NCBI GenBank assembly: GCA_009711785.1 | Contig: VENA01000030.1 | Coordinates: 1 to 64,000 of the forward strand | Reading direction: 5' to 3' | Source of the DNA: Bacillota bacterium | Lineage (GTDB): Bacteria; Bacillota; Clostridia; Tissierellales; MES13 | DNA length: 64,000 bases | Part shown: in pieces, positions 3-38,385 of the stretch | Layout: every line of letters begins with the position of its first letter | Numbering within the stretch: the first letter of the stretch is position 1 | Translations under genes and position numbers: made by a program | The notes under the pieces: generated by a model | Seen by the model: the letters and a program-made list of their open reading frames with translations, nothing else | Told to the model about the DNA's origin: nothing | The model's database searches: none

Positions 3-1169
3 GGGGATAAAATTGAGGGGGAATATCAAGCTGATGACAAACAAGAAGTAATATCTATGTTAAGAGCTGAAAATTCCTATCCCCTAGAAATTAAGGAAAA
101 TGATAAAAAAAATAAAGATGTATTAGATATTTTTAATAAAGTTAAGATGAAAGATATTTCACTTTTCTGTAGACAAATTTATGCCATGTTAAATGCAGGG
201 GTAACAGTAAATACAAGTTTAGAGGTTTTAGAATCTCAAACTGAAAATAAAAAAATGAAAGAAACAATAGGAAATGTTAGTGATGATGTACAAAAGGGTG
301 AAACTTTAACAGATGCAATGAAAAAATATGGTGATGTTTTTCCAGATCTTTTAGTAAATATGATTGAAGTAGGAGAGATGAGTGGTAATTTAGATAATAT
401 AATGGCAAAAATGGCTGATTATTATGAAAGGGAAAATAAAATTAGAAATAAAGTTAAAGGTGCCATGGTTTATCCAGCTATTTTAAGTATTGTTACTATC
501 TTTGTAGTAATATTTTTATTAACTGCAGTTCTTCCTACATTTGTAGATATGTTTACTGGAAGTGGTGTTGTTTTACCATTACCAACTAGGATACTTTTAA
601 CAATAAGTAGTTTATTAAAAAATTATTGGTATCTTTTCATAATTATATTATCTGGTTTGTTTTTATTATTTAGAAGATATAAAAAAAGTGAAGTTGGAAA
701 GAAAAATATAGATAAGATTAAATTTAAAATACCTATATATAAAACTTTAATAAGGGATATGATGACCACAAGATTTTCAAGAACCTTAGCAATAATGATA
801 ACCAGTGGAATACCTTTAATGGATGCTTTAGATATAGTATCAAGGGTGGTTGGAAACAAAGTAGTAAAGGAAGGTATATCCGATACAATGGATAAAATGA
901 GACAAGGTTCTGATCTTTCAACTCCTATTAAAGATATAAAAATCTTTCCACCTATGCTTATATCAATGATAAAAATAGGTGAAGAATCCGGAGCTTTAGA
1001 TACTATTTTAGATAAAGCAGCTGATTATTATGATGAAGAATTAGAAACATCAACTAAAAAACTAACTACTATGATAGAACCAATAATGATAGTAATAATG
1101 GCTATAATAGTAGGATTTATAGTATTATCAATCGCACTTCCTATGTTTGATATGGTAAATACTATATAA
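3..1169 (+). CDS. pilC: Type IV pilus inner-membrane platform protein PilC (GspF family), 5' end cut by window
   Basis: Polytopic platform protein of the type IV pilus machine, on which pilin subunits are thought to be loaded under the drive of the PilB ATPase. The frame is open from base 3 and the residues before the first ATG (base 57), such as GDKIEGEYQAD, match the usual N-terminal strand of the family. The gene therefore starts upstream of the window and the ATG at 57 is internal. Two T2SSF repeats are visible, each with a conserved G-E-x-S-G motif (GEMSGNLD, GEESGALD). Hydrophobic segments follow each repeat, including a C-terminal one ending in LPMFDMV. It heads the pilus cluster as seen here; pilB and pilT are presumably upstream. 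Family assignment is secure. Confidence 0.95.
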   Translation, partial: GDKIEGEYQADDKQEVISMLRAENSYPLEIKENDKKNKDVLDIFNKVKMKDISLFCRQIYAMLNAGVTVNTSLEVLESQTENKKMKETIGNVSDDVQKGETLTDAMKKYGDVFPDLLVNMIEVGEMSGNLDNIMAKMADYYERENKIRNKVKGAMVYPAILSIVTIFVVIFLLTAVLPTFVDMFTGSGVVLPLPTRILLTISSLLKNYWYLFIIILSGLFLLFRRYKKSEVGKKNIDKIKFKIPIYKTLIRDMMTTRFSRTLAIMITSGIPLMDALDIVSRVVGNKVVKEGISDTMDKMRQGSDLSTPIKDIKIFPPMLISMIKIGEESGALDTILDKAADYYDEELETSTKKLTTMIEPIMIVIMAIIVGFIVLSIALPMFDMVNTI

Positions 1170-1253
1170 CTATTTTTAATTTTTATGTTTAAGGGGGTGA
1201 AAAAAGGGATAGAATTAAATTACTTTGTACAAAAATTTTAAGGAGGAATAAAA

Positions 1254-1694
1254 ATGATAAAATTATTTAGTAAGAGTTTGAAAAACAACAAAGGTTTTAC
1301 ATTAATTGAATTAGTTGTAGTTATTGCGGTATTAGGAATATTAGCAGCAGTAGCTGTACCAAGATTTGGAAACTTCCAAAGTGGAGCAAAGGAAACTGCT
1401 GATTTTGCAACTGCTAAAAGTTTAGCAAAAGCTACAGAATTAGCTATTGCTGAAGGTAATATTTCCCTACCTACAGATAGCTCACCTAAATCAGTGAATA
1501 TAGAAACTGATTTAGTAGATAACGGTTATTTAGATGGTAAACCCACCCCTCAATCTACTGATACTACAGGTAAAGCTTTTGAAATAGAAGTTGATGATGA
1601 CGGGACAATATCAGTTTATATTAATGATGATGGTAGCGGTGAAATAAACACTGGTGCAGATGGTAGTGATAAAAAAGTTTATCCTACAAATTAA
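1254..1694 (+). CDS. pilA: Type IV major pilin (class III prepilin)
   Basis: Probable main structural subunit of the pilus. A short basic leader ends in KNNKG, followed by FTLIELVVVIAVLGILAAVA, the canonical prepilin peptidase site (cleavage after Gly, N-methylated Phe, Glu at +5) and the hydrophobic N-terminal helix. Mature length is about 130 residues with a soluble, acidic C-terminal domain. It has the strongest ribosome binding site of the cluster (AGGAGG at 1242-1247, 6 nt before ATG) and an 84-nt gap upstream, fitting high expression. That it is the major rather than a minor pilin is inferred from its position, RBS and Ala/Gly-rich content. Confidence 0.93.
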   Translation: MIKLFSKSLKNNKGFTLIELVVVIAVLGILAAVAVPRFGNFQSGAKETADFATAKSLAKATELAIAEGNISLPTDSSPKSVNIETDLVDNGYLDGKPTPQSTDTTGKAFEIEVDDDGTISVYINDDGSGEINTGADGSDKKVYPTN

Positions 1695-1697
1695 AGG

Positions 1698-2456
1698 ATG
1701 TTGCTTTTGATTAGCTTGATTTTTGTAATGTCATTACTTTTAGGTTCCTTCCTTAACGTATGCATCCATCGCATACCAAGAAAGGAATCCATAGCACATC
1801 CACCATCACACTGTCCTAAGTGTGATACTAAATTAAAGTTTATAGATTTATTACCAGTAATAAGTTACTTAAGTACTAAGGGAAAATGTAGATACTGTGG
1901 GGAGAGAATATCTCCACAGTATCCAATAATAGAATTACTTACTGCTATTATAAGTATACTTATATATCTTAATTATGGTTTAAGTATTTTATTTGTTAAA
2001 TATGTAGTATTATCAATGATTTTAATTGTAGTATCTGTAATTGATTATAAGTATCAAATAATACCTAATAAAATTATTATATTTGGTTTTATTGTTGGTA
2101 TATCTTTACATCTATTATATAACGTAAGGACTAGTTTTATAAATGGGACTATAGGCCTATTGATAGGTGGAGGTATATTTTTACTTATAGCTATCGTAAC
2201 AAAAGGGGCAATGGGTGGAGGAGATATAAAATTAATGGGTATGATAGGTTTTTATTTAGGTTATAAGTCTATACTTTTAGTTACTTTTTTATCCTTTATT
2301 ATAGGAGCTTTTATATCTATTTTACTTTTAGTTACTAAGATAAAGTCAAGGAAGGATTTTATACCCTTTGGACCCTTTATATCGATAGCAACAATTATAG
2401 TAGTTTTATATGGAAAAGATTTAGTTGGGTTATATTTGAAATTGATACTGAATTAA
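1698..2456 (+). CDS. pilD: Prepilin peptidase / N-methyltransferase (A24 family)
   Basis: Membrane aspartyl protease that removes prepilin leaders and methylates the new N-terminus. The N-terminal GSFLNVCIHRIP motif is followed by a cytoplasmic zinc-binding loop with two CxxC pairs (CPKC, CRYC), typical of the bifunctional methylating type. Catalytic aspartates are in VSVIDYKYQIIPN and in the GGGDIKLM box, the GxGD signature. About seven or eight hydrophobic segments are present. It starts 3 nt after the pilin stop, so it is probably translationally coupled; the Shine-Dalgarno AAAGGA overlaps that stop. Its 3' end forms half of a strong hairpin. Confidence 0.95.
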   Translation: MLLLISLIFVMSLLLGSFLNVCIHRIPRKESIAHPPSHCPKCDTKLKFIDLLPVISYLSTKGKCRYCGERISPQYPIIELLTAIISILIYLNYGLSILFVKYVVLSMILIVVSVIDYKYQIIPNKIIIFGFIVGISLHLLYNVRTSFINGTIGLLIGGGIFLLIAIVTKGAMGGGDIKLMGMIGFYLGYKSILLVTFLSFIIGAFISILLLVTKIKSRKDFIPFGPFISIATIIVVLYGKDLVGLYLKLILN

Positions 2457-2476
2457 TCGGTATCAATTTCAAATAT
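2432..2476 (+). other. 17-bp perfect intercistronic hairpin between pilD and pilM
   Basis: The arms at 2432-2448 and 2460-2476 are exact reverse complements around an 11-nt loop containing the pilD stop codon. No T-run follows, so it is not a standard intrinsic terminator. It may stabilise or define mRNA segments within the pilus operon (inference). Confidence 0.75.
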
Positions 2477-2504
2477 TACTTAAAAAGATTGGGGTGAAAT
2501 ATAA

Positions 2505-3533
2505 ATGCTTAATAAAAACATATTATCTATGGATATAGGAACAAAGAATATAAAGTTAGTTGAGTGTAGAGAAAAAAATCAAAATATTAATATAGAGAAA
2601 GCTATTATAACTGAGACCCCAGAGGGAAGTATAAAAAATGGTAGAATAATAAGTCTTGATTCATTAAGAGAGGCTTTAAAAGAGACTTTAAGAAAAGAAA
2701 AAATAAAAGCACAAAAGACAGTTATAACAATACAAAGTAAATCAATAATTTCTAGAGAGTTAGAAATACCCTTTACTAAAAATAAAGAGGAAATGAATTC
2801 AATTGTTAAGTATGAGCTTAAAGAATATATTCCTATAGATATTGAAGATTATGTTTTACAGTATAAAATATTAGAAAAAAAGGAAAGAAAGGCTAAAGTA
2901 ATAGTAATAGCTTTATTAAAGACAATAGTTGAGGACTATCTAGATTTAATAAAAAAATTAAGACTTAAGCCTATAGCATTAGATATAAATACTAATTCCT
3001 TGATTAAGTTATTAAATAACAGCCCAGAAGATATAACTACTGAAAAAACAGTAGCCTTTGTTGATTTAGGTTATAGTAATATACATGTTACTATAATTAG
3101 TAATGGTAAATATATGTTTGATAGGTTAATAGAACTTGGATCTAAGGATATGGATAAAAATATTTGTGATTATTTAGGTCTTCCTATAAAAAAGGCTGAA
3201 AAGATGAAACTTAATATTAAAAATATTAATGATGATAGTGATGATTTTGAAGAGCAGAATAGCATAAATATGATCAGATCAGCTTTAGATATTTGGGTTA
3301 GCGAAATAGAAAGGGTATTAAAATATTACACAAGTAGGAAAAGAGAGAATAATATTGATGCAATATATATATATGGAGGAGCTTCAAATTTAAATGGAAT
3401 AGATATTTATTTTAAGGAATCATTTAATATTAATACCTTTATTTTAGATGATATATCTAGAGTAGAAAAAAAAGATAAAGACTTAAATATAGCTTCGTAT
3501 ATAAATTCATTAGGTGCTGTTATAAGAAAATAG
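2505..3533 (+). CDS. pilM: Type IV pilus assembly protein PilM (actin-like ATPase)
   Basis: Cytoplasmic actin-fold ATPase that links the PilN/PilO alignment complex to the assembly motor. The N-terminus MDIGTKNIKLVE is the phosphate-1 loop. A second nucleotide loop, VAFVDLGYSNIHVTII, lies near residues 184-200, and an adenosine loop IYIYGGASNLNGID lies near residue 290. The length of 342 aa is typical. The start follows a GGGGTGA ribosome site, and the gene sits directly before pilN and pilO as in other type IV pilus operons. Confidence 0.92.
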   Translation: MLNKNILSMDIGTKNIKLVECREKNQNINIEKAIITETPEGSIKNGRIISLDSLREALKETLRKEKIKAQKTVITIQSKSIISRELEIPFTKNKEEMNSIVKYELKEYIPIDIEDYVLQYKILEKKERKAKVIVIALLKTIVEDYLDLIKKLRLKPIALDINTNSLIKLLNNSPEDITTEKTVAFVDLGYSNIHVTIISNGKYMFDRLIELGSKDMDKNICDYLGLPIKKAEKMKLNIKNINDDSDDFEEQNSINMIRSALDIWVSEIERVLKYYTSRKRENNIDAIYIYGGASNLNGIDIYFKESFNINTFILDDISRVEKKDKDLNIASYINSLGAVIRK

Positions 3534-3543
3534 GAGGAATAGG

Positions 3544-4104
3544 ATGAAAGATCTTAATTTTTTTGAACCTTATGTACGAAAAAATAATAAAGATTATAAA
3601 GAAATAGCTTTATATACTACTTTAGGTATTATAGTAGGATTAATTATTTTATTTCCAATTATAAATACTATTAGGCTTAAAAGTATGAGTAAAGAAATTA
3701 CTGTTTTAAAGACTGAATTAAACTCTCCTAAATTACAAAATAAAATTAATACTTTAGAAACTAGAAAAAAGGAGATTAAGGATTTGAAAAATCATTTAAA
3801 GGATTTAAAAATAATAGATGAGAAGCTTTCAAATCTTAATGTAATAAATGATACTTTATTAAATAAAATTACCATGTTAACTCCCAAAAACATTAATTTT
3901 AAAGCATTAAATATTAATAAAGATTCTATTACAATTCAAGGAATAGCTGATAATCAAAACTCAATAGGTGCCTTTCAATATAATTTAAGAAATGATAAAA
4001 CTTTTGAAAATGTATATGTAGCATCTATAAATAAAGAAAGCAATAATTTTAATTTTAATATAACTTTTAATATAAAAGGTGTGAAAGAAAATGACTCTAA
4101 CTAA
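3544..4104 (+). CDS. pilN: PilN-like pilus assembly protein
   Basis: Bitopic inner-membrane alignment protein. A short cytoplasmic segment contains the PilM-binding-type motif LNFFEPY, a variant of the usual N-[LI]-L-P motif. It is followed by one transmembrane helix (about residues 22-44), a coiled coil (about 48-105) and a ferredoxin-like C-terminal domain. The start follows GGAGGAATAGG. The gene overlaps the next one by 14 nt, which suggests translational coupling with the PilO-like partner. The identity rests on order and architecture rather than strong sequence motifs. Confidence 0.85.
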   Translation: MKDLNFFEPYVRKNNKDYKEIALYTTLGIIVGLIILFPIINTIRLKSMSKEITVLKTELNSPKLQNKINTLETRKKEIKDLKNHLKDLKIIDEKLSNLNVINDTLLNKITMLTPKNINFKALNINKDSITIQGIADNQNSIGAFQYNLRNDKTFENVYVASINKESNNFNFNITFNIKGVKENDSN

Positions 4105-5386
4105 GAGGGAAAGAATATTAGTTTCAATACTTATAGTGATTATAGTTTTAGCTGGGTATTTTAAAGTTTTAATTCTTCCTCAGTTAGAAAAAATTGATGA
4201 ACTTAAAACTTCAGTAAAGGCATATAATGAGAAAATACCAGATATGAATGAACTTAATAACTCCATAAGTTCAGTAAATAAAGAATATGATAAATTAAGT
4301 TTAGAATTTGAAGGTTATAATAATAAATATTTCAGTGATCTACATCAAGACGAAATAATATTTATAATAAGTGAAATTTTAAATAAAACAGACCTTAATA
4401 TTCAATCTATAAACTTTTCTGAAAGTAAGGAAGAGAAGATAGATGAAAATAATATAAAAGTAGTAACAGTAAATTTACCTTACAGTGGTAAATATAACTC
4501 TTTGAAAAATTTATTACTAAACATAGAAAGTTACCATAAAATGATTATGGTAAACGATTTATCTATTAATAAAGACAAAGATAATGTAAATGGAAATATT
4601 TCATTAGATTTTAATTGTATTGATATATTAAATAAGGAAAAATTAGTTACTTGGAGTAATGAAAATGGAAATGTTAACCCCTTTGATTTTAATGATATTA
4701 CAATATCAAAGGAGTATGATATTCAAATAAGTTTAGGTCCTGATAGGGTAATATTAGAAAACTTTGAAGATAAGGATTTTGAGTATGATTCAGATAGGAA
4801 CGGAGAGGTTTGGTTAAGTAAGTATCCACTATCTAAAAAGGGTAAATATTCTCTTAAGACTGATTTAGTATTTGATAGAGATGAAGATAAAAGTGTTAAA
4901 ATATTAATGGATAATATAAATATAAATAAACCAGCTGAAAAGATAAAAATGTGGGTATATGCCTTTGAAAAGTCAAAGTCTAAATTAAGTATAACTATAG
5001 AAGATGAAGAAGGTAAAAATAATATTTTATTAGCTAATGAAATAGATTGGTTAGGATGGAAACAGTTAGAATATATACCGACTCAAGATGAGGATAGATA
5101 TCCTTTAATAGTTAAAGATATTAAGATTTCTAATACTGCAAATAATACTTTCTTAATAGACGATTTAGAAGCATATTATGGTAGTGAAAAAATAAATGAT
5201 TCGATAATAAAAGAAACTGAAGATTTTATTCATTATCAAGTTCAACCTAAGGATACATTAAAGACTATTAATGATAAGTTTTTTAGTTATGATATGACTA
5301 AGAAAATTATAAGATATAATGACTTAAAATCAAATTCTTTAAAAGTTGGACAAGTTCTAATAATACCTAAAAATGTTAGAGATTAA
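4091..5386 (+). CDS. PilO-like protein fused to a beta-sandwich domain and C-terminal LysM
   Basis: The first 200 residues look like PilO: one N-terminal transmembrane helix (about residues 9-30), a coiled coil and a small alpha/beta domain ending near VNGNISLDFNCID. Unlike ordinary PilO (about 200 aa), the protein continues to 431 aa. Residues about 220-375 form a probable beta-sandwich, carbohydrate-binding-like domain (starts ILENFEDKDFEY, aromatic and Asp-rich). Residues about 380-428 form a LysM repeat (HYQVQPKDTLKTIN ... LKVGQVLIIP). LysM binds peptidoglycan, so the pilus platform may be tethered to the wall of this Gram-positive cell (inference). The start overlaps pilN and is preceded by a weak GTGAAAG site. 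Confidence 0.82.
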   Translation: MTLTKRERILVSILIVIIVLAGYFKVLILPQLEKIDELKTSVKAYNEKIPDMNELNNSISSVNKEYDKLSLEFEGYNNKYFSDLHQDEIIFIISEILNKTDLNIQSINFSESKEEKIDENNIKVVTVNLPYSGKYNSLKNLLLNIESYHKMIMVNDLSINKDKDNVNGNISLDFNCIDILNKEKLVTWSNENGNVNPFDFNDITISKEYDIQISLGPDRVILENFEDKDFEYDSDRNGEVWLSKYPLSKKGKYSLKTDLVFDRDEDKSVKILMDNININKPAEKIKMWVYAFEKSKSKLSITIEDEEGKNNILLANEIDWLGWKQLEYIPTQDEDRYPLIVKDIKISNTANNTFLIDDLEAYYGSEKINDSIIKETEDFIHYQVQPKDTLKTINDKFFSYDMTKKIIRYNDLKSNSLKVGQVLIIPKNVRD

Positions 5387-5398
5387 GGAGGACAGGCC

Positions 5399-6475
5399 AT
5401 GTTTTTTAAAAATAAAAGGGGATCAACTTTAGTATTAGTTATTATGGTCATGGCTGTTCTTTCAATTTTAAGTTTCGCACTTTTAAATGTAGTTTATTCT
5501 GATGTAAAACAAGTATCATTTCTAGAAAAAGATACAAAAGCCTTTTATATAGCAAGGGCAGGGGCTTTAATTGTATCTGATTATATTTTAGAATCAGGAA
5601 ATATAGATTATATTAAAAACAATGCCCCAATAGAAGGTACTATAGATAAAGGAAGCTACGAAGTATATATTAATGGAGAAAATACAATTGTATCTACTGG
5701 AAAAGTAGATAATGTAACTGAAACGATTAAACTTTCTTTAACTATTAAAAAAAATAAGAATTTATCAGATTTATTTGAAGACGATCTTGCAATCGCTGTA
5801 AATGAAGATATAGATAGAAATAAAGTTGATGTTTATGGAAATATATATTCTTCAGGAAATATTTATAGTAAACAACAAAATGATAAAGATCAAACAGAAT
5901 TTAATTTTAAGTATACTTCACCTAAAATACCAAATTATGAAGGATTTGAAGAAATATATTTAAAAAATAAGGATGAATATACAATATATAACAGCAAGGG
6001 TTTTAATAAAATAGAAATAAAGAAAGGTAATTTAAAGATTGATACAACAAATCAGGAAACAATAAAAATCGTTGTAAATAATTTATCAATTAAAAATGGT
6101 GATATAGAGATAATGGGAGATGGAAATGTTGTATTTTATATAACAGAAAGTGGAGAATTTGAAAATGATTTTAATATACCTGAAATGGTATTCATTGTTG
6201 ATAAAAACGCTTCAATGAGTTTTAAAAATATAGATAGTGGTAAAAAGGATGGATTTAATGGATTTATTTATGGACCTGAAGCTACTGTCGATATTAACCA
6301 TCCTAATATAAGTATTCAAGGTGCTATTATTACTAAAAATCTTATTTATAAAGAAGATAATTCACCTGTCAACAATTCTCAAATTTATCATAAAAAATTT
6401 CCTAATGATTTAGATATGGAATTAGAAGTTGAAGGTGATAAAAGCTTTGAATTAGGTGACTGGGGAAGTGATTAA
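5399..6475 (+). CDS. PilX-like minor pilin / pilus assembly protein with beta-rich domain
   Basis: The N-terminus KNKRGSTLVLVIMVMAVLSI is a PilX-type pilin leader: Gly cleavage site and hydrophobic helix, but Leu instead of Glu at +5, as in class III or GspK-like tip pilins. A helix with aromatic and Ala residues (FYIARAGALIVSDYI) follows, matching the N-domain of PilX. From about residue 125 onward it is rich in Asn, Asp and Ile, with repeated short beta strands resembling a right-handed beta-helix (for example DVYGNIYSSGNIYS). The length of 358 aa is large for a minor pilin. It may act in initiation or at the pilus tip. A GGAGGA ribosome site precedes the start. Confidence 0.75.
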   Translation: MFFKNKRGSTLVLVIMVMAVLSILSFALLNVVYSDVKQVSFLEKDTKAFYIARAGALIVSDYILESGNIDYIKNNAPIEGTIDKGSYEVYINGENTIVSTGKVDNVTETIKLSLTIKKNKNLSDLFEDDLAIAVNEDIDRNKVDVYGNIYSSGNIYSKQQNDKDQTEFNFKYTSPKIPNYEGFEEIYLKNKDEYTIYNSKGFNKIEIKKGNLKIDTTNQETIKIVVNNLSIKNGDIEIMGDGNVVFYITESGEFENDFNIPEMVFIVDKNASMSFKNIDSGKKDGFNGFIYGPEATVDINHPNISIQGAIITKNLIYKEDNSPVNNSQIYHKKFPNDLDMELEVEGDKSFELGDWGSD

Positions 6476-6492
6476 TAAATTGAGGTGTTAAA

Positions 6493-6885
6493 ATGGAAAA
6501 CAATAAAGGTATAACATTAATAGAAATTATAGTTTCCATAGCAATAATAGGTATTATATCTTTAACTTTTCTAAGTATATTTTCAGATGGATTTATTAAT
6601 ATAATAGCCTCAGGAAAAAAGAGTAAAGCAGTGGCTAAAACAAGACTTGTAATGAATGATATGTTATCAGATAAAAATAAATTTAGTCTCGATGAAAATG
6701 GAGTTGAAAGCTATTTAGATTCAGTAATAGATAATTATGATAATACAAACTATACATTATCTAGTGATACAAAGGAAATTAACGAAAAGGAAATTAAAGT
6801 ATATAGACTTACTGTTAAGGTTACTTATTATAAAGATAGAAAAGTTTCTTTAACAACAGCTATACCTAAGGGGAGTAGTCAATGA
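6493..6885 (+). CDS. Minor pilin (prepilin N-terminal methylation motif)
   Basis: A leader of six residues ends in NNKG, followed by ITLIEIIVSIAIIGIISL with Glu at +5, a perfect class III prepilin signature. The soluble part is about 95 residues with no recognised domain. It lacks conserved cysteines. It overlaps the next pilin gene by 4 nt (ATGA), so the two minor pilins are probably made as a coupled pair, like PilV/PilW or GspI/GspJ. Assignment to a specific minor pilin is not possible from the sequence alone. Confidence 0.85.
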   Translation: MENNKGITLIEIIVSIAIIGIISLTFLSIFSDGFINIIASGKKSKAVAKTRLVMNDMLSDKNKFSLDENGVESYLDSVIDNYDNTNYTLSSDTKEINEKEIKVYRLTVKVTYYKDRKVSLTTAIPKGSSQ

Positions 6886-7379
6886 ATAACAAAGGCGTAA
6901 CTTTGATAGAACTTTTAGTTGTTTTAGCTTTAATAGGAATAGTTATAGTGACTGCATTTTCATTATTAAATTTTGGGTATAAAACTTTTAATAAAGGGAC
7001 AAGCCAAGAAGAAATACAAAGTAATTTAAGTTTAGCAAGTAATGTAATAGCAAGAAATATAAGATATGTTAAAGAAGATATTTTTATATTAGATAGTTTA
7101 TCTGAAGATGATATAGAAGATGGATATAATTATATATATATAGAAGGGGATTCTTTAAAGCATTTAATAAAAAATGAAGATAGTCCTAGGGATATAATAA
7201 AAAGGTATTGTGACAGTTTTATAGTTAGTAAAAAAAATAAAAATACATTAGAAATAAAAATAACTTCAAGTAAAGAAAATCAGGATTATGATATAAAAAC
7301 AAGGGTTTTACTTTTAAATAGTCCAAAAGTAAAAGGAAAAACAACTAATGGTGGAAGTGTAATAAAGTATAAACCTTAA
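6882..7379 (+). CDS. Minor pilin (PilW/GspJ-like)
   Basis: The leader MNNKG precedes VTLIELLVVLALIGIVIVTA, a canonical prepilin motif. The 165-aa length, the sequence NLSLASNVIARNIRYVKED after the helix and the strand-rich C-terminus are typical of GspJ/PilW-type pseudopilins. The gene overlaps the upstream minor pilin by 4 nt and ends 22 nt before the start of the S-layer-homology gene. A role near the pilus tip is inferred from the family. Confidence 0.83.
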   Translation: MNNKGVTLIELLVVLALIGIVIVTAFSLLNFGYKTFNKGTSQEEIQSNLSLASNVIARNIRYVKEDIFILDSLSEDDIEDGYNYIYIEGDSLKHLIKNEDSPRDIIKRYCDSFIVSKKNKNTLEIKITSSKENQDYDIKTRVLLLNSPKVKGKTTNGGSVIKYKP

Positions 7380-7401
7380 TCATTTTATGGAGGTGATAAT
7401 A

Positions 7402-9123
7402 TTGAAAAAGGTATTAATTTTTATAATTATATTTTTAATATCCTATCCAGTCTTTGGAGAAGATGAAAATGAAACTTTATTAGGAGAAGATGATGGATAT
7501 GATTCAGGATATACTATGGGTGAATTAGAAGGAAAAATTTATGGATATGAAGACTTTTTAGAAGGAAATGATAATGACTGGAGAGATGCTTGCCCTGATA
7601 ATGATGATATAGAGGATGACTATAATCTAGATGAAGAAGATAGAAGTTATGAAAGGGATTTTGAAGATGGTTTTAAAGATGGATTTGAAAAAGGATATGA
7701 AGAAACATATAGAAAATGGAATCTTAAGGATATAAAAAAATCCTATGAAGATGGAATTAAAAATGGTAATTACTTTGGTAATATAATGGGTGAAATGGCT
7801 GGAAAAAAGGATCAGTATTCAAATGATAGAAGTGATTGGGAAGAAGCTATTAAATCAGATTATGATATAAAAAAAGAATATTCATTATATGATACTGATG
7901 ATGAATATAGTGAAGGTTTTTTATATGGGTTTAAAGAAGCCTTTAAGGAAAGTTATAAAGATTCATTCAGAGATACTATATTAGAAACAAATAAAGTTTT
8001 AAAAAAAGAAGCTATAAAAAATGGACAAACTATCGGTAGAGATGAAGGAGAATTATTTGCAAAGATTTCTTATTTAAGGGGGAATGAAAATTCCTGGGAT
8101 GAAAGCATACCTACAGACTCTATGCTTAAGGAAAAATATGGGCTATTAAGGGAAGAAAAAGAATATAGAAATGGATTTTTAGTAGGTTATAAGGATGGAT
8201 TTAAAGAAAGCTATATAGAAACATTTAGGGATGAGAATTTAAAAAACGCTAAGGGTAATATGGAGTTTGAAAAGATATCTATGGATGGTGGTAAAGTAGA
8301 AAGTTTTGATGAAAATGTAACTTTAGATATAGATGAAGCTACCTTTTATAAAGAAGCTTATATAGGAATTGTTAAAGGGAATTTTCCATATAAAAATGAA
8401 TTAAATGCAGCTAGTAGAATGTATGATGTTAAAATTAATAATTCATACGATTCAATAAGTTTAAGAAAACCTATGAAACTTAAATTTAAATATGAAGGGA
8501 ATAAAAATGCAGGTATATATAAACTTAAAGATAATAAGTGGCTATATTTATCTAGTAAATTTGAGGATGGATACATATATACCATGATAGATAATCATTA
8601 TTATACAGGGGGAACTTATGCTGTATTTTTAGATGATAATTATTTAGAGTTAAAGGATATAAAAAATCATTGGGCAGAGGAAGAAATTAATATATTTGTA
8701 AGAAGAAATTATATATCAGGATATAAAGATAAAACCTTTAGACCTGAAAAAAATGTATCTAGAGGAGAATTTGTAACAATACTAGATAGAATATATAACT
8801 TAAGATATCCATGGAGTTATAATCAACATAAATTTAAGGATCATATGGTATTTGGTCCCTATAGAGATTCTATTAATAAGGCTGTAAGTAATGGTTATAT
8901 AAATGGATATACTGATAATACCTTTAGGCCTAATGTAGCTATATCGTATCAAGAGATAGAATGGATTATTCAAAGACTTCCTGGAAAAAGAAATTTTAAA
9001 TGGAAACAAATTGAAAGTAAAATTATAAAGGATAAAGGATATAGACCTGCTAGTAAAGATTCGATGAAAAAAAATATTACAAGGGCTGAGATAGTTTATC
9101 TTTTTTATAATTTAAATAGATAA
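7402..9123 (+). CDS. Secreted S-layer-homology protein with three GX3G-rich repeats
   Basis: A TTG start at 7402 is chosen because GGAGGTGAT at 7389-7397 is correctly spaced for it; the in-frame ATG at 7387 overlaps that site. A hydrophobic signal peptide (about residues 1-19, ending PVFG) leads to three acidic repeats of about 80 residues (near 32-105, 113-195 and 203-285). Each is built of G-x3-G steps, for example FEDGFKDGFEKGYEETY. A beta domain follows, then SLH modules at about 416-465 and 476-525 plus a degenerate third. SLH modules bind pyruvylated wall polymer. Its place inside a pilus operon suggests a surface anchor or pilus-associated wall protein (inference). The GX3 repeats resemble those of Yae1-type proteins only in pattern. 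Confidence 0.85.
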   Translation: MKKVLIFIIIFLISYPVFGEDENETLLGEDDGYDSGYTMGELEGKIYGYEDFLEGNDNDWRDACPDNDDIEDDYNLDEEDRSYERDFEDGFKDGFEKGYEETYRKWNLKDIKKSYEDGIKNGNYFGNIMGEMAGKKDQYSNDRSDWEEAIKSDYDIKKEYSLYDTDDEYSEGFLYGFKEAFKESYKDSFRDTILETNKVLKKEAIKNGQTIGRDEGELFAKISYLRGNENSWDESIPTDSMLKEKYGLLREEKEYRNGFLVGYKDGFKESYIETFRDENLKNAKGNMEFEKISMDGGKVESFDENVTLDIDEATFYKEAYIGIVKGNFPYKNELNAASRMYDVKINNSYDSISLRKPMKLKFKYEGNKNAGIYKLKDNKWLYLSSKFEDGYIYTMIDNHYYTGGTYAVFLDDNYLELKDIKNHWAEEEINIFVRRNYISGYKDKTFRPEKNVSRGEFVTILDRIYNLRYPWSYNQHKFKDHMVFGPYRDSINKAVSNGYINGYTDNTFRPNVAISYQEIEWIIQRLPGKRNFKWKQIESKIIKDKGYRPASKDSMKKNITRAEIVYLFYNLNR

Positions 9124-27635: not shown

Positions 27636-27664
27636 TTGTATTTACAAATTGTATATGTTATAAT
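27636..27664 (+). promoter_or_regulatory. Candidate promoter of the OLE RNA
   Basis: TTGTAT (27636-27641), 17-nt spacer, then TATAAT (27659-27664). The -10 is perfect and the -35 weak. It would start transcription near 27671, close to the beginning of the GC-richer structured segment. Confidence 0.6.
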
Positions 27665-27670
27665 TGAGTT

Positions 27671-28270
27671 TACTTAGAATGGCGCAGTATTCTAGTCAGT
27701 ACAGCTAATTCTGAAGGCGGGGCTAAAAATCCGTCAAAGGGCACATCAATGAAGTTCCTGGTTGTGGCTGCCGACGCCCAGTTGGGGGTCATTTCTGGGA
27801 GTAAGGAGGATGGGGCGATCCACAATGGCATGTGGGCGTTGACCCTACCTCCGTGGAGACTCGTTTTTAAAACAAACGGGAATAACCTGTTATGTGGTGA
27901 AAGCTACAGACAGAGTAGCCTGCCTTGAGTGAGGTTGGTGGATAATGGTTGTGACTTTTAATTTTATGGGCCCATAAAAGGAGAGGTTTTGCTGTTGAAA
28001 CCAATTTTGCAAAAGAGGCTAGGACTTAGCATGACTGTTGGGGAAATCTCCTAGACTGTTCATGAAGAGATGAAATTTATTAGGGATTACAGTGCGGGCT
28101 AAGTGGTAATCTAGCCCTACCAAAGAGGTAGAGAAAAGAGTAAAGGGAAACCGCTGTTATGGCGACAGGCAGTTCTTTTCTGGGAAACCCTGCTAGACCT
28201 TAAGCCGTAAAATTTACCTAATATATTGCCATTTTAGTGTGCTGATAGCACTAGCTATCAGCTTTATTTT
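27671..28270 (+). ncRNA. ole: OLE RNA (ornate large extremophilic RNA)
   Basis: About 600 nt without any open frame of note, clearly richer in G and C than the flanking DNA, lying between ispA and the gene for the OLE-associated membrane protein upstream of dxs. This location, length and partner gene are the defining context of OLE RNA, known from Bacillus halodurans and anaerobic Firmicutes. Many local helices are visible. Examples are CGTTT/AAACG around 27863-27879, the TTTTATG-GGCC-CATAAAA hairpin at 27962-27979, and a 3' hairpin GCTGATAG/CTATCAGC at 28241-28262 followed by TTTATTTT as terminator. OLE forms a membrane ribonucleoprotein with OapA and is linked in other species to stress tolerance and Mg2+ homeostasis. 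The ends are estimated from a promoter and the terminal hairpin. Confidence 0.9.
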
Positions 28271-28303: not shown

Positions 28304-28933
28304 TTGCCTAAAAAAAAGGTAGAAAAAACAAATAAAAGTCTTAATAAAAGATATAATATAAAATGGATAACCGTGATTTCTTTATGGACTTTTGTACTTG
28401 CAATATTATTTAGTTTAATATCAGAAAATTTACTTAGAAATTTCAATTCGACATTTGCGTTTATAATATTAATTTTTATTGTACTTCTTGGTGTTACTTT
28501 TGATACAATAGGAATAGCGGTAGCATCAGCTGATGAAAAACCTTTTCATTCTATGGCTGCTAATAAGATAGCAGAAGGAAGATATGCGGTAAAATTAGTG
28601 AGAAATGCAGGACCTGTATCAAATTTTTGTAATGATGTAGTTGGAGATATTTGTGGTATAATAAGTGGTGGTGCAGGAACTATTATAGTATTAAAGGTAG
28701 TAAATACTTACGGATTTAAAAAAGTAACTATTATAAGTGTAATAATGAGTGCTTTTATTGCCAGTTTAACAGTTGGAGGAAAGGCCTTTGGTAAAGAAAT
28801 AGCCCTTAAGAAAAATGAAGAAATTTTGTATTATACATCTAAGATATTAAAAGTATTAGATGAAAAATTGCAAATAAATATTTTACCAGATCTTAAAAAA
28901 AAGGTCAAAAAAAAAGATAAAGAAAGAGAGTGA
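28304..28933 (+). CDS. oapA: OLE-associated protein A (OapA), membrane protein
   Basis: A 209-aa integral membrane protein that binds OLE RNA in known systems. A lysine-rich N-terminus is followed by hydrophobic helices at about residues 22-42 and 50-72. Next comes the highly recognisable core TFDTIGIAVASADEKPFHSM and VRNAGPVSNFCNDVVGDICG, then another membrane helix pair near residues 115-165. The C-terminus is again very basic. The core resembles the DUF21/CNNM Mg2+ transporter domain. The TTG start follows CTGGAGGT. It is preceded by the OLE RNA and overlaps the dxs upstream region, which together make the identity firm. Confidence 0.92.
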   Translation: MPKKKVEKTNKSLNKRYNIKWITVISLWTFVLAILFSLISENLLRNFNSTFAFIILIFIVLLGVTFDTIGIAVASADEKPFHSMAANKIAEGRYAVKLVRNAGPVSNFCNDVVGDICGIISGGAGTIIVLKVVNTYGFKKVTIISVIMSAFIASLTVGGKAFGKEIALKKNEEILYYTSKILKVLDEKLQINILPDLKKKVKKKDKERE

Positions 28934-28938
28934 CTATT

Positions 28939-30813
28939 TTGAGTCAAATATTGTCTACTATTAATAATTTAGAAGACTTAAAAAAACTAAATAGTAATGA
29001 AATGAATTCTTTAGCAAAAGAATTAAGAGATTTTGTAATAGAAAATGTATCAACAACAGGAGGACATTTAGCATCTAATTTAGGGGTAGTAGAACTTACA
29101 TTAGCGCTTCACAGAAGTTTTAATAGTCCTAAAGATAAAATAATATGGGATGTTGGACATCAATCATATATTCATAAAATAATAACAGGAAGAAAAGATA
29201 AATTCCAATCCTTAAGACAAATTGATGGATTAAGTGGATTCCCAAAAAGGGATGAAAGTAAACATGATGCTTTTGAAACAGGACATAGTTCCACGTCAAT
29301 ATCAGCTGGAATAGGTATGGCTTTAGCTAGAGATGTAAAGAAAGAAAATAATCATGTTGTTTCAATAATCGGAGATGGAGCAATGACTGCTGGAATGGCC
29401 TTTGAAGCTTTAAATCATGCAGGAGATTTAGGAACTAATTTAATAGTAATATTAAACGATAATGAGATGTCTATATCGAAAAATGTTGGTGGAATGAGTC
29501 AATATCTAGACAGGATAAGAACAGCACCAACTTATTCTAGAATGAAAGGTGATGTAGAAAGCTTATTAAATAGAATTCCAGCTATAGGAAATAAAGTTTA
29601 TAAAACTGCCGAAAGAGCTAAAGACAGTGTTAAATACTTTTTAGTTCCTGGTGTTTTCTTTGAGGAATTAGGTTTTAAGTATTTAGGTCCAGTTGATGGA
29701 CATAATATAAATGAACTATTAAGTGTATTAAATCGCGCTAAAAAAGTTAAAGGCCCAGTAATAGTACATACAGTGACTAAAAAGGGTAAAGGTTATAAAC
29801 CTGCAGAGGATAACCCTGGGAAGTATCACTCATCTTCACCATTTGATATAGAAACGGGAAAGCCACTTAAAAAATCTAATAAAACGAAATATTCAAATGT
29901 TTTAGGAGAAAGTATAGTTGAATATGCAAAAAAAGATGAAAAAATAGTAGCTATAACTGCAGCTATGCCTGCGGGAACTGGATTAAGTAAATTTAAAGAG
30001 GAATTTCCAAATAGATTTTTTGACGTAGGTATCGCTGAACAACACGGAGTGACCCTTGCAGCTGGGATGGCTTCTCAAGGTATAAAACCAGTTTATGCAG
30101 TATATTCAACGTTTTTACAAAGAGGTTACGATCAGGTACTCCATGATGTATGTATTCAAAACCTTCCAGTTACTTTAGCTATAGACAGAGCAGGTTTAGT
30201 AGGTAATGATGGTGAAACTCACCATGGAGTTTTTGATTTTTCATATTTAAGTCATTTACCAAATATGACTATAATGGCTCCTAAGGATGGAGAAGAGTTA
30301 AATAAAATGATAGAATTTGCAGTTGAATATAATGGACCTGTAGCAGTTAGATATCCTAGAGGGTATTGCTATAATTATAAAGAAGATAAATTAAATGATA
30401 TAGAGTTAGGAAAGGGAGAAATTTTAAAAGAAGGTAAAGATATTGCAATATTAGCAATAGGTAAGATGGTTGAAAAAGGGGTTAATGTATACAAAAGTTT
30501 TAAAGAAAAAGGCCAAAATATAACACTTGTTAATGCTAGATTTGTAAAACCATTAGATAATGACATTCTAGATACTTTAATGAAAGATCATAAGATTATT
30601 GTAACATTAGAAGATAATTCTAAACTAGGTGGCTTTGGTAGCATGGTTAATAATTATCTTATTAATAATAATTACAATGGTCAAGTTCTTAATATTGGTT
30701 TACCAGATAACTTTGTTGAACATGGGGATGTAGAAGAATTATTTAAAAGATGTGGTATGGATGAAGCTAGCATAATTAAAGAGATTAAGAAAAAAATAAA
30801 TGGGAGCGATTAG
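28939..30813 (+). CDS. dxs: 1-deoxy-D-xylulose-5-phosphate synthase
   Basis: Thiamine-diphosphate enzyme that makes DXP from pyruvate and glyceraldehyde 3-phosphate, the entry to the MEP isoprenoid route. The TPP motif GDGAMTAGMAFEALNHAG lies near residue 148, the LAIDRAGLVGNDGETHHG region near 414, and DVGHQSYIHKI near 72. TTG at 28939 is preferred because the resulting start (SQILSTINNLEDLKKLN) aligns with homologs and GAGAGTGA lies 5 nt upstream. GTG at 28930, overlapping the oapA stop, is the alternative. The length of 624 aa is normal. Confidence 0.95.
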   Translation: MSQILSTINNLEDLKKLNSNEMNSLAKELRDFVIENVSTTGGHLASNLGVVELTLALHRSFNSPKDKIIWDVGHQSYIHKIITGRKDKFQSLRQIDGLSGFPKRDESKHDAFETGHSSTSISAGIGMALARDVKKENNHVVSIIGDGAMTAGMAFEALNHAGDLGTNLIVILNDNEMSISKNVGGMSQYLDRIRTAPTYSRMKGDVESLLNRIPAIGNKVYKTAERAKDSVKYFLVPGVFFEELGFKYLGPVDGHNINELLSVLNRAKKVKGPVIVHTVTKKGKGYKPAEDNPGKYHSSSPFDIETGKPLKKSNKTKYSNVLGESIVEYAKKDEKIVAITAAMPAGTGLSKFKEEFPNRFFDVGIAEQHGVTLAAGMASQGIKPVYAVYSTFLQRGYDQVLHDVCIQNLPVTLAIDRAGLVGNDGETHHGVFDFSYLSHLPNMTIMAPKDGEELNKMIEFAVEYNGPVAVRYPRGYCYNYKEDKLNDIELGKGEILKEGKDIAILAIGKMVEKGVNVYKSFKEKGQNITLVNARFVKPLDNDILDTLMKDHKIIVTLEDNSKLGGFGSMVNNYLINNNYNGQVLNIGLPDNFVEHGDVEELFKRCGMDEASIIKEIKKKINGSD

Positions 30814-31617
30814 ATGAGTAAGAAAGAACGCATAGATGTCTTACTAGTAAAAAAAGGATTAATTGAGAGCAGAGAAAAAGCAAAAAGATGTGTTATGGCT
30901 GGTTTAGTGTTTAATGATAATATGAGAATAGATAAACCTGGAACAAAGGTAGCTAAAGATGCAAATATAATACTTAAGGGTAATCCTATTCCTTATGTAA
31001 GTAGAGGAGGACTTAAGCTAGAAAAAGCACTAAAAGAGTTTCCTATTGATGTAAAGGGAAAAGTTTCATTAGATATAGGTGCTTCTACTGGTGGGTTTAC
31101 AGATTGTATGTTACAAAATGGTGCGAAAAAAGTATATGCAATAGATGTAGGATATGGACAATTAGCTTGGAAAATAAGAAATGATGATAGAGTTGTTACA
31201 ATGGAAAGAACTAATATTAGATATGTAAAGCCTGAGGATATTGGAGAATTAGCAGACTTTGCATCTATTGATGTATCCTTTATTTCATTAGAACTTGTTT
31301 TACCTGTAGCTAAAAAACTAACTAAAGATAATGTAGATATAATAGCATTGATTAAGCCACAATTTGAAGCTGGTAGAGAACAAGTAGGGAAAAAGGGTGT
31401 TGTAAGGGATAGTAATGTTCATAGAGAAGTATTAACAAAGATATATAATCTAGGTAAATCCTTAGGATTATATATACAAGACTTATCATATTCTCCTGTA
31501 AAAGGGGCAGAGGGGAATATCGAGTATTTAGCGCATCTAAAAAAGAAAAGAAATGAAAATATAGATGAAAAAATACTAATAGATAATATAGTCAATGCTT
31601 CACATGATGAATTGTAG
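30814..31617 (+). CDS. TlyA-family rRNA 2'-O-methyltransferase (YqxC)
   Basis: An N-terminal S4 RNA-binding domain (about residues 1-65, RIDVLLVKKGLIESREKAKR) is followed by an FtsJ-like methyltransferase fold. The latter has the SAM motif SLDIGASTGGFTDCMLQNGA near residue 88 and ALIKPQFEAGREQVGKKGVV near 180. Members modify ribosomal RNA. It starts directly after the dxs stop with GGGAGCGAT as ribosome site. The dxs-tlyA-argR-recN order is conserved in Firmicutes. Confidence 0.93.
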   Translation: MSKKERIDVLLVKKGLIESREKAKRCVMAGLVFNDNMRIDKPGTKVAKDANIILKGNPIPYVSRGGLKLEKALKEFPIDVKGKVSLDIGASTGGFTDCMLQNGAKKVYAIDVGYGQLAWKIRNDDRVVTMERTNIRYVKPEDIGELADFASIDVSFISLELVLPVAKKLTKDNVDIIALIKPQFEAGREQVGKKGVVRDSNVHREVLTKIYNLGKSLGLYIQDLSYSPVKGAEGNIEYLAHLKKKRNENIDEKILIDNIVNASHDEL

Positions 31618-31637: not shown

Positions 31638-32090
31638 ATGAAAAAATATGCAAGACAAGGAAAGATATTAGATTTAATAGAAGAACATGAAGTAGAAACT
31701 CAGGAAGAATTAGCTAAATTATTAAAGGATAACGGAATAGATGTAACACAAGCTACTGTGTCAAGGGATATCAAAGAATTAAGACTTGTAAAAGTTTTAG
31801 CTAAAAGTGGTAAGTATAAATATGCTGCAATGGGACAAAATCCAGATGGTATAACTGATAGATTAGTCAATATTTTTAAGAATTCGATAATATCTATGAG
31901 TGAAGCAGGACATATATTAGTTATTAGTACATTACCAGGTGCAGCGCAAATATCGGCTTCGGCAATAGACTCATTAAATTTAGAAGAAATAGTGGGTACA
32001 ATTGCAGGTGATGATACAATTTTTGTAGCTATAAATAAAAGAGAAAAAGTTAAAGAGGTAATGGATATATTTTACAAACTACTTGATTAA
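31638..32090 (+). CDS. argR: Arginine repressor ArgR/AhrC
   Basis: A winged-helix N-terminal domain with VTQATVSRDIKELRLVKV and a C-terminal oligomerisation and arginine-binding domain with the GTIAGDDTIFVAI motif. The length of 150 aa is normal. It controls arginine metabolism in relatives; the neighbouring recN is not part of that pathway, but the position is conserved across spore formers. AAGGGGGT precedes ATG. Confidence 0.96.
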   Translation: MKKYARQGKILDLIEEHEVETQEELAKLLKDNGIDVTQATVSRDIKELRLVKVLAKSGKYKYAAMGQNPDGITDRLVNIFKNSIISMSEAGHILVISTLPGAAQISASAIDSLNLEEIVGTIAGDDTIFVAINKREKVKEVMDIFYKLLD

Positions 32091-36478: not shown

Positions 36479-38385
36479 GTGTCCAGCGAAGCTGTCATTC
36501 GCTAGTTGGTGAAAGTCCAACCCAAGTAATTGCCAAGAAGCTTGGTAGCTATGAGACTAATTATAGGCGAGAGCCTGTGGTTAAAGCGTCTTGAAAATGT
36601 GTCTATTATGATGCTAGCAAATATATAGACTGTAACGTTAAGTGAATTCTGCAGCACTGTAAGAAAACTCAAGATTGAGAGAAGAGATACTGACGAGCCT
36701 TTAGGCATAGGGCGAAGTCCGAAGGAAACTTAACTGGAACTTGGAGCATTAAGTGAAGAAGTATCCGGTGTATGGGAAGCGGTATGTATAGAAAGTGAAT
36801 GATGGAACTGGAGAGAGCCTAACCTACACATCTTAAGATGTAAAGCATGACCTTATAAGCGAAAGTGAAATAGGAAGTGGTAGGAAGGCAGTCGGAGGGG
36901 AGCATATTACCGATGATAGAATGCAGAAACCATTCTTAGGGAAGAGTCCCTACTTTGTTCAAGTTTTCTAAGGAGGTAAGAGTGAGTGAATGTCAAAAAG
37001 ACTAACAACATCATAGATAAAGTTCGACAACTTCAAAGGAAACTATACCAATCAGCCAAGAAAAGTAAGAGCCGAAGGTTCCATGCTTTATATGACAAAA
37101 TATATAGGAAAGACATTCTTTGGAGAGCATGGAGTCAAGTTAAAGCCAATAAAGGTAGTGCAGGAGTAGATGAACAAACTATAGTTGATATTGAAACTAT
37201 TGGTGTGGAAAAGGTACTTGAAGCAATACAAAAGCAAGTATCAGAAGGAAAATATAATCCACCGCCAGTATTGAGAACAGAAATTCCGAAGGAAAATGGA
37301 AAGAAAAGACCTTTGGGTATTCCCACTGTAAAGGATAGAATCATTCAAACAGCAACAAAGATAGTTATAGAACCTATTTTTGAAGCTAACTTTAAAGAAT
37401 GTTCCTACGGATTTAGACCCAAAAGAAATCAACACCAAGCCCTTGATGCAATTAGAAGAGCTTGTAATAATAAAGGAATGTGGGTATTAGATGCAGATAT
37501 ATCAGGATACTTCGATAACATAAATCATTCGAAACTACTATTGTTAGTTGAAAGACATATAAGCGATAGAAGAGTAATCAAATTAATACGGAAGTGGTTA
37601 GAAGCAGGAATTATGAAAGACGATGCTGTTATTGAAAGTAAGATAGGTAGTCCTCAAGGAGGAGTAATATCCCCATTGCTTGCAAATATTTATTTAGATT
37701 ATTTAGATACAGTTTGGGAGAAATATTACAAACATCTAGGTATACTAATAAGGTTTGCTGATGACTTTGTAGTTGTTTGTAAGAACTATAAAGCTGTTAA
37801 ACATGCCCTAAATGCCGTAAGGCTGATAATGCAGAAGTTAGAATTAAATCTAAATAAGGACAAAACTAAGGTTATTTTTTTATGGGATGGAAAAGAAGGG
37901 TTTGATTTTCTTGGATACCATAATCGAAAGATTAAAGCAAAGACTATAAATGGTAGAATCTACTATGTACTAAAACAATGGATTAGTAAGAAATCAATAA
38001 AGAAGATAAGTGATAAGGTGAAGAAAACTCTGAGTAGGAAAACCCTATGTGTATCTACTGAGGAAATGATTAAAACATTAAATCGTAAGATTGTAGGGTG
38101 GAGAAATTACTATGGCTTATCGCCATTTGATAAATTAGCAAAGATTGATAAGTATATAAGAATGCGATTAGTATTTTGGTTTAATAACAAAAGACAAGAA
38201 CGAAAAAGAAAAGAGTTTTATAACCTAGTATCTTTCTTTAATGATACTGGCTTGAAATATGTTGCTCAGAACTCGTAATGCAGATGGAAGAAGAACTTAG
38301 GAAAGCCGTATGAGGGAAAACTTCACGTACGGTTTGATGAGGAGGTGGTGGAAGAGATTAAATCAAATCCACCATTTCACTCTAC
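36479..38385 (+). mobile_element. Group II intron with encoded reverse transcriptase
   Basis: About 1.9 kb. The 5' end GTGTCCAGCG fits the group II GUGYG-like start, and GGTGAAAGTCCAACC shortly after is a common domain I element. A reverse transcriptase gene occupies domain IV. Domain V is visible at about 38303-38336 (AGCCGTA ... GAAA ... TACGGTT). Domain VI follows (GGTGGTGGA ... TCCACC), and the 3' end is placed at TCTAC. Insertion right after the spo0A terminator is the habit of class C and related bacterial introns. No gene is interrupted. The exact ends are inferred. Confidence 0.85.
36986..38278 (+). CDS. ltrA: Group II intron reverse transcriptase/maturase
   Basis: Intron-encoded protein for splicing and retrohoming. 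Reverse transcriptase blocks are present: PLGIPTVKDRIIQTA, YGFRPKRNQHQALDAI, VLDADISGYFDNINH (catalytic Asp), GSPQGGVISPLLANIYLDYL and IRFADDFVVVCKN (FADD in place of the more common YADD). A maturase domain with NRKIVGWRNYYG follows. No C-terminal HNH endonuclease is seen, as in class C-type proteins. A GTG start with AAGGAGG is used. The frame is intact at 430 aa, so the element may be active. Confidence 0.95.
   Translation: MNVKKTNNIIDKVRQLQRKLYQSAKKSKSRRFHALYDKIYRKDILWRAWSQVKANKGSAGVDEQTIVDIETIGVEKVLEAIQKQVSEGKYNPPPVLRTEIPKENGKKRPLGIPTVKDRIIQTATKIVIEPIFEANFKECSYGFRPKRNQHQALDAIRRACNNKGMWVLDADISGYFDNINHSKLLLLVERHISDRRVIKLIRKWLEAGIMKDDAVIESKIGSPQGGVISPLLANIYLDYLDTVWEKYYKHLGILIRFADDFVVVCKNYKAVKHALNAVRLIMQKLELNLNKDKTKVIFLWDGKEGFDFLGYHNRKIKAKTINGRIYYVLKQWISKKSIKKISDKVKKTLSRKTLCVSTEEMIKTLNRKIVGWRNYYGLSPFDKLAKIDKYIRMRLVFWFNNKRQERKRKEFYNLVSFFNDTGLKYVAQNS

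Follow-up and report, generated by a model that had tools for sequence, protein, structure and literature searches.

To our knowledge, OLE RNAs are among the largest bacterial RNAs without a known biochemical activity. In total, 2,822 OLE RNAs have been reported from Bacillota, and anaerobic, non-extreme hosts are already among the published ones (PMC11332333). The OLE ribonucleoprotein (RNP) of Halalkalibacterium halodurans contains OapA, OapB, OapC and bS21. In this species, the gene cluster is reported to yield one polycistronic RNA (PMC12265935) and OLE to undergo 3' processing (PMC11332333). In the published cryo-EM structure, loop L4 forms dimer bridge B1 and loop L9.3 forms bridge B3, a symmetric kissing loop based on the palindromes GGCC, GAUC or AGCU (PMC12286853), while loops L5 and L6 are intermolecular partners (PMC12265935).

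The window analysed here is a stretch of 64,000 nucleotides from a Bacillota bacterium whose genome encodes homologues of all four proteins of the H. halodurans RNP. Comparison with all Rfam families by cmscan returned a match to the OLE model RF01071 at 27663-28248 of the forward strand with 500.1 bits (gathering threshold 50, E 9.9e-144). It spans positions 1-616 of the 616 model positions, that is the full length, and is the single OLE copy in the genome. The OLE gene (ole) is part of the cluster xseB-ispA-ole-oapA-dxs-tlyA-argR-recN-spoIVB-spo0A, in which argR is a reported OLE-linked gene (PMC12265935):

26716-27609, forward strand: ispA, polyprenyl (farnesyl) diphosphate synthase (FPP synthase), upstream neighbour (PF00348, NF045485)
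27671-28270, forward strand: OLE RNA, predicted transcript
28304-28933, forward strand: oapA, OLE-associated membrane protein A of 209 aa, TTG start preceded by a GGAGG Shine-Dalgarno sequence
28930-30813, forward strand: dxs, downstream neighbour (TIGR00204, 876.7 bits)
30814-31617, forward strand: tlyA-type methyltransferase (S4+FtsJ)
31638-32090, forward strand: argR (Arg_repressor)
following argR: recN, named from its translation

An earlier note on this DNA had described the segment as non-coding, GC-richer than its surroundings and heavily paired, and had placed it after ispA and before a 209-aa OapA-type protein and dxs. All of this is borne out. Open reading frames of more than 59 aa are missing from the interval on both strands, its G+C content is 0.42-0.52 as compared to about 0.22-0.33 in the flanks, and its predicted fold of -211 kcal/mol (z = -6.8) is matched in stability by none of 20 shuffles; the position is confirmed by the coordinates and domains of the neighbouring genes. 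The check that the note had proposed, an OLE covariance match over most of the model, gave the full-length match described above. We also prefer its bounds, 27671-28270, over those of Rfam because the -10 element at 27659-27664 and the hairpin at 28241-28262 with its U tract delimit the predicted promoter-to-hairpin transcript.

With P7, P8 and P9 present, and being neither variant 1 nor variant 2, this OLE belongs to the full-length class (Fernando and Breaker 2024). It resembles this class over the whole RF01071 model, in the conserved P4/P5/P6/P9 loops, in its single-copy location between ispA and oapA-dxs and in the presence of genes for the partner proteins. It differs from RF01071 in three respects: the P7 hairpin is short, lacking ~23 model positions in the RF01071 alignment, while P8 and P9 are full; a 3' hairpin, GCUGAUAGC/GCUAUCAGC, is absent from the Rfam structure; and the L9.3 palindrome is lengthened to GGGCCC, which is frequent in the order. 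Judged by these sequence features, the segment is a genuine and complete OLE RNA.

The OapA of the window has no match in Pfam or NCBIfam and none in the PDB; since a Pfam match is lacking, we identify it by homology and by its place next to OLE. Among 20 aligned OapA homologues, which share 36 invariant columns, 18 match the CNNM domain PF01595 (best 3.7e-07), whereas the window copy taken alone does not; the relation of OapA to the CNNM membrane domain has been published (PMC11332333). A profile built from these 20 homologues detected OapA in 45 of 60 genomes sampled from the order. OLE and OapA occur together in 44 of these genomes, with oapA directly 3' of OLE in 44/44, which corroborates the OapA assignment of the earlier note; both are missing from 15, and the remaining one has OapA only. 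The latter (G059) was rejected as an instance of OapA without OLE, because its oapA is truncated where the contig stops. Thus, no OapA-bearing genome in the sample is demonstrably without OLE. About half of the oapA genes (42/88 loci, with the start choice of this analysis) combine a TTG start with a strong Shine-Dalgarno sequence, and this start codon possibly limits OapA synthesis.

As to the further partners, OapB is a 93-aa ORF between map and infA that matches PDB entry 7k9b, 'OLE-associated protein B', by phmmer (E 5e-14). It was located by this position, the KOW model of Pfam having been discarded as a finder as it returned NusG only. OapC/YbxF (82 aa; 4lck/3v7e at E 6e-13) is encoded between rpoC and rpsL, and bS21 (60 aa) is encoded in the genome as well. 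OapB and OapC were found in 57/60 and 52/60 relatives, respectively, irrespective of the presence of OLE, as reported in the literature for wider sets. Proteins of the MpfA-type CorC/HlyC family are usually anticorrelated with OLE, and the one encoded in this genome therefore speaks somewhat against the assignment, although a single copy is inside the published range. In our sample, their mean number is 0.84 per OLE genome versus 1.8 per genome lacking OLE (G059 excluded), in line with the published anticorrelation.

The earlier note had placed OLE in an apparently Tissierellales-like, spore-forming genome with type IV pili. Support for this description of the host comes from an OapA search, in which the nearest named relatives are Sporosalibacterium, Thermohalobacter, Caloranaerobacter, Anaeromonas, Anaerosalibacter, Tissierella, Soehngenia and Alkaliphilus, from spoIIIAE/AF, spoIVB, spo0A and spoIIM, and from pilus genes in the window; the nearest OapA of all, 98% identical, comes from the metagenome-assembled genome 'Bacillota bacterium MES16'. 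The presence of OLE is nevertheless ordinary, because 2,822 Bacillota OLEs had already been reported; within the order, OLE was found in 44/60 genomes and 28/37 genera, although such counts come from samples of related genomes and do not equal independent events. Likewise, with anaerobic, non-extreme hosts already published (PMC11332333), roles outside extremophiles are no new suggestion. The RNA is a further example of a known RNA, ordinary for its clade, and one additional sequence contributes little by itself. OLE and OapA of the Bacilli/Clostridia type were also encountered in records labelled Pseudomonas sp. ISL-84 (locus L124) and Lutibacter sp. B2 (locus L100), which are probably mislabelled genomes.

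The loops through which OLE dimerises, L4, L5-L6 and L9.3, are all present in the window:

27723-27730, forward strand: A-rich L4 loop CUAAAAAU, exact Rfam consensus
27776-27780, forward strand: L5 loop GCCCA, identical to the Rfam consensus
27826-27829, forward strand: L6 loop UGGC, identical to the Rfam consensus
27968-27973, forward strand: palindromic L9.3 kissing loop GGGCCC, core GGCC at 27969-27972

Hence, the contact sequences of the Clostridium acetobutylicum / C. botulinum cryo-EM dimers are kept here. Comparison of 97 distinct P9 regions revealed a self-complementary L9.3 tetranucleotide in 93 of them. Most of these have GGCC and seven have AGCU; GUAC occurs once (L044, family f14) and is not among the palindromes in the main text of PMC12286853. 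Double changes from GGCC to AGCU and from GGCC to GUAC were thus seen, and locus L029 carries GGCU, which is self-complementary through two G-U pairs and, as an intermediate would, occurs in a family (f3) alongside GGCC and AGCU members; it may represent a wobble intermediate between these two. In three loci (L019, L100, L103), P9 is truncated and the L9.3 loop lost, while the rest of OLE and OapA are retained. The states of L9.3 change eight times on the OapA tree, a quick tree with weak forks and some long branches. These natural variants (GUAC, GGCU and the three loop-less OLEs) bear on the published RNA-dimer contact: at the level of sequence, they support it and show that its loss is possible.

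Comparison of the loci further supplies two handles on the RNA, namely a predicted start and a predicted end of the transcript:

27636-27664, forward strand: predicted sigma-A promoter of ole, TTGTAT at 27636-27641, 17-nt spacer ending in TGT, extended -10 element TATAAT at 27659-27664
28241-28262, forward strand: terminator-like 3' hairpin GCUGAUAGC-ACUA-GCUAUCAGC followed by UUUAUUUU, conserved in sequence and outside the Rfam structure

At the 3' end, a G+C-rich 9-bp stem is followed by TTTATTTT (28241-28270), which is the layout of an intrinsic terminator. The RF01071 match stops within the 5' arm of this hairpin, the model having no helix there. Within 110 nt downstream of OLE, 64/89 loci have a hairpin with a T tract behind it, as compared to 7% in mononucleotide shuffles, and the distance from the hairpin end to the oapA start (median 43 nt) contains an extended -10 element in only 4/61 loci. 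The hairpin thus looks like a terminator that would make oapA depend on read-through.

However, termination requires that the stem pairs and that a U tract follows, whatever the sequence of the stem, and ordinary terminators are not expected to conserve it. The drift that this would allow was not seen here. The GCUGAUAGC-loop-GCUAUCAGC form recurs with few changes at 62 of 89 distinct OLE loci, at equivalent places in L002-L044 and L163-L173, and in these 62 the stem has a pairwise identity of 0.957 (95.7%) versus 0.35 for the 8 nt upstream, placing the stem among the highest-ranking 11% of the nine-column windows within OLE, while the loops vary from 2 to 16 nt with 42 different sequences. 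Six of the nine pairs are invariant (1-4, 8 and, save for one compensated change from A-U to G-C, 7), pairs 5 and 6 vary by G-U wobbles only, and it is the innermost pair that varies; across the other eight pairs, we count two changes to G-U wobbles plus a single compensated pair. Of the 44 OLE genomes, 27 have the strict form of the hairpin at the 3' end of OLE, and only four other sites in all 60 genomes have it, so that most genomes with the hairpin have their sole copy at OLE; with 4 off-OLE copies against 27 at OLE, a generic terminator of these genomes was rejected as its identity. A class-wide sample of 391 genomes added seven from outside the order, and there, too, the hairpin lies 3' of a full OLE; the other loci with the pattern are at unrelated sites and occur at about the rate expected by chance.

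As terminators need no fixed stem sequence, a sequence-specific role of the hairpin is possible. Rather than serving merely as a terminator, the hairpin could belong to OLE, or to the leader of oapA, as an additional sequence-specific element that, for instance, binds a protein or pairs in trans; to this reading we assign somewhat less than an even chance. Beyond the stem identity and the near confinement to OLE, it is favoured by the persistence of the hairpin over deep branches of OapA, with six changes in presence over long branches of the same weakly resolved tree, as well as by poor U tracts in L063, L067, L071 and L093. Against it, 58 of 62 copies have at least five T in the first eight bases past the stem, as a terminator would, and we found no conserved alternative partner within OLE. 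Pairing of a hairpin arm with upstream OLE sequence, that is attenuation, was considered and discarded, the one weak match (27991-27997) already being a strand of P9. In addition, none of the Clostridium, Bacilli, Dethiosulfatibacter and Thermosediminibacter loci of the data set has the conserved hairpin, and this includes the Clostridium-type loci L097 and L107, which are not the structured species themselves; its contribution would therefore be clade-specific and no general requirement for OLE function. We tentatively propose, as a suggestion slightly more doubtful than not, that in Tissierellales and related Clostridia the GCUGAUAGC-loop-GCUAUCAGC hairpin is recognised by its sequence and sets oapA read-through or the mature 3' end, beyond acting as a terminator. 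Through an element nearly specific for OLE in this place, cells could adjust how much OLE RNA they have relative to OapA, or receive a signal. We found no mention of the hairpin in those open-access OLE papers that were searched; an earlier description is possible and its novelty uncertain, but this conserved hairpin is the part of the locus that deserves specialist attention.

At the 5' end, an extended -10 element (TGnTATAAT-like) is present at the corresponding site of 80/88 distinct OLE loci versus 4% in mononucleotide shuffles, the usual form being TTGAAA/T-17-TATAAT. The ole promoter escaped a simple sigma-70 scan, its -35 element matching at 3/6 positions. The predicted start of ole is near 27671, and it is not certain that this promoter was previously undescribed. 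On sequence criteria, all features of an independent transcription unit appear to be present at ole. Nevertheless, considering the polycistronic RNA and the 3' processing in H. halodurans (PMC12265935, PMC11332333), processing could here take the place of initiation or termination. In the extreme case, a long ispA-ole-oapA-dxs transcript would be the sole source of OLE and would have to be processed to yield it, with the promoter- and terminator-like sequences being incidental, which would also suit cluster genes that are closely spaced and all on the same strand. We consider this rather improbable, as a -10 element that is nearly fixed and a conserved hairpin with a U tract are hardly incidental.

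Our preferred account is that ole has a promoter of its own within the isoprenoid/sporulation cluster, from which an RNA of ~600 nt is made, and that the 28241-28262 hairpin is where the majority of transcripts stop. Without room for a promoter of its own, oapA would be expressed by read-through, in which case OLE RNA should greatly exceed OapA mRNA. The RNA would dimerise via L4, L5-L6 and L9.3 and bind OapA in a membrane-located stress-response RNP as in H. halodurans. The covariance model, the adjoining OapA, OapB/OapC/bS21, the dimer loops, the promoter-like sequence and the hairpin with its U-rich tail show in sequence that this is a complete OLE gene of the full-length class, whereas its transcription from that promoter, the hairpin end, oapA read-through and the dimeric membrane RNP are inferred; for the account as a whole, we estimate a probability of roughly 0.97. 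That the hairpin is instead a DNA operator is unlikely, given a spacer of variable length (2 to 16 nt) and changes that are G-U wobbles. Finally, a decayed OLE or a structured RNA of another kind, to which the short P7 with its ~23 missing positions might point, is refuted almost beyond doubt by the 500-bit full-length match with every conserved loop intact, by retention of OLE in a congener (G001) and by intact genes for OapA, OapB, OapC and bS21.

Other hairpin arrangements were observed next to OLE. The Bacilli loci of the data set differ from the window in having another hairpin (GAGGGGUUUGCCCCUC) after OLE, or none that resembles the one in the window; three of them (L111, L118, L124) have in common a hairpin unlike that of the window, GAGGGGTTTGCCCCTC, possibly another clade-specific conserved terminator. 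In four Anaeromonas-like loci (L027, L030, L031, L037; family f18), a second complementary copy follows the 3' arm and the U tract, in a layout of about GCTGATAGC...GCTGTCAGCTTTATTTAAATA...TATTTAAATAAAGCTGACAG, which allows two mutually exclusive hairpins, attenuator-like, before oapA.

Elsewhere in the window, a group II intron (36503-38385) with a D1-D4 match, a D5 region and a reverse transcriptase/maturase ORF (36986-38278) lies immediately behind a terminator-like hairpin that follows spo0A. Bacterial class C introns are known for sitting after such hairpins, and the placement looks like an instance of this habit. The type IV pilus cluster (57-7379) of this Gram-positive spore former encodes PilC/T2SSF, a PilD peptidase, PilM, PilN, several pilins with N-methylation motifs and a LysM protein, and adjoins a gene for an SLH-domain protein (7387-9123).
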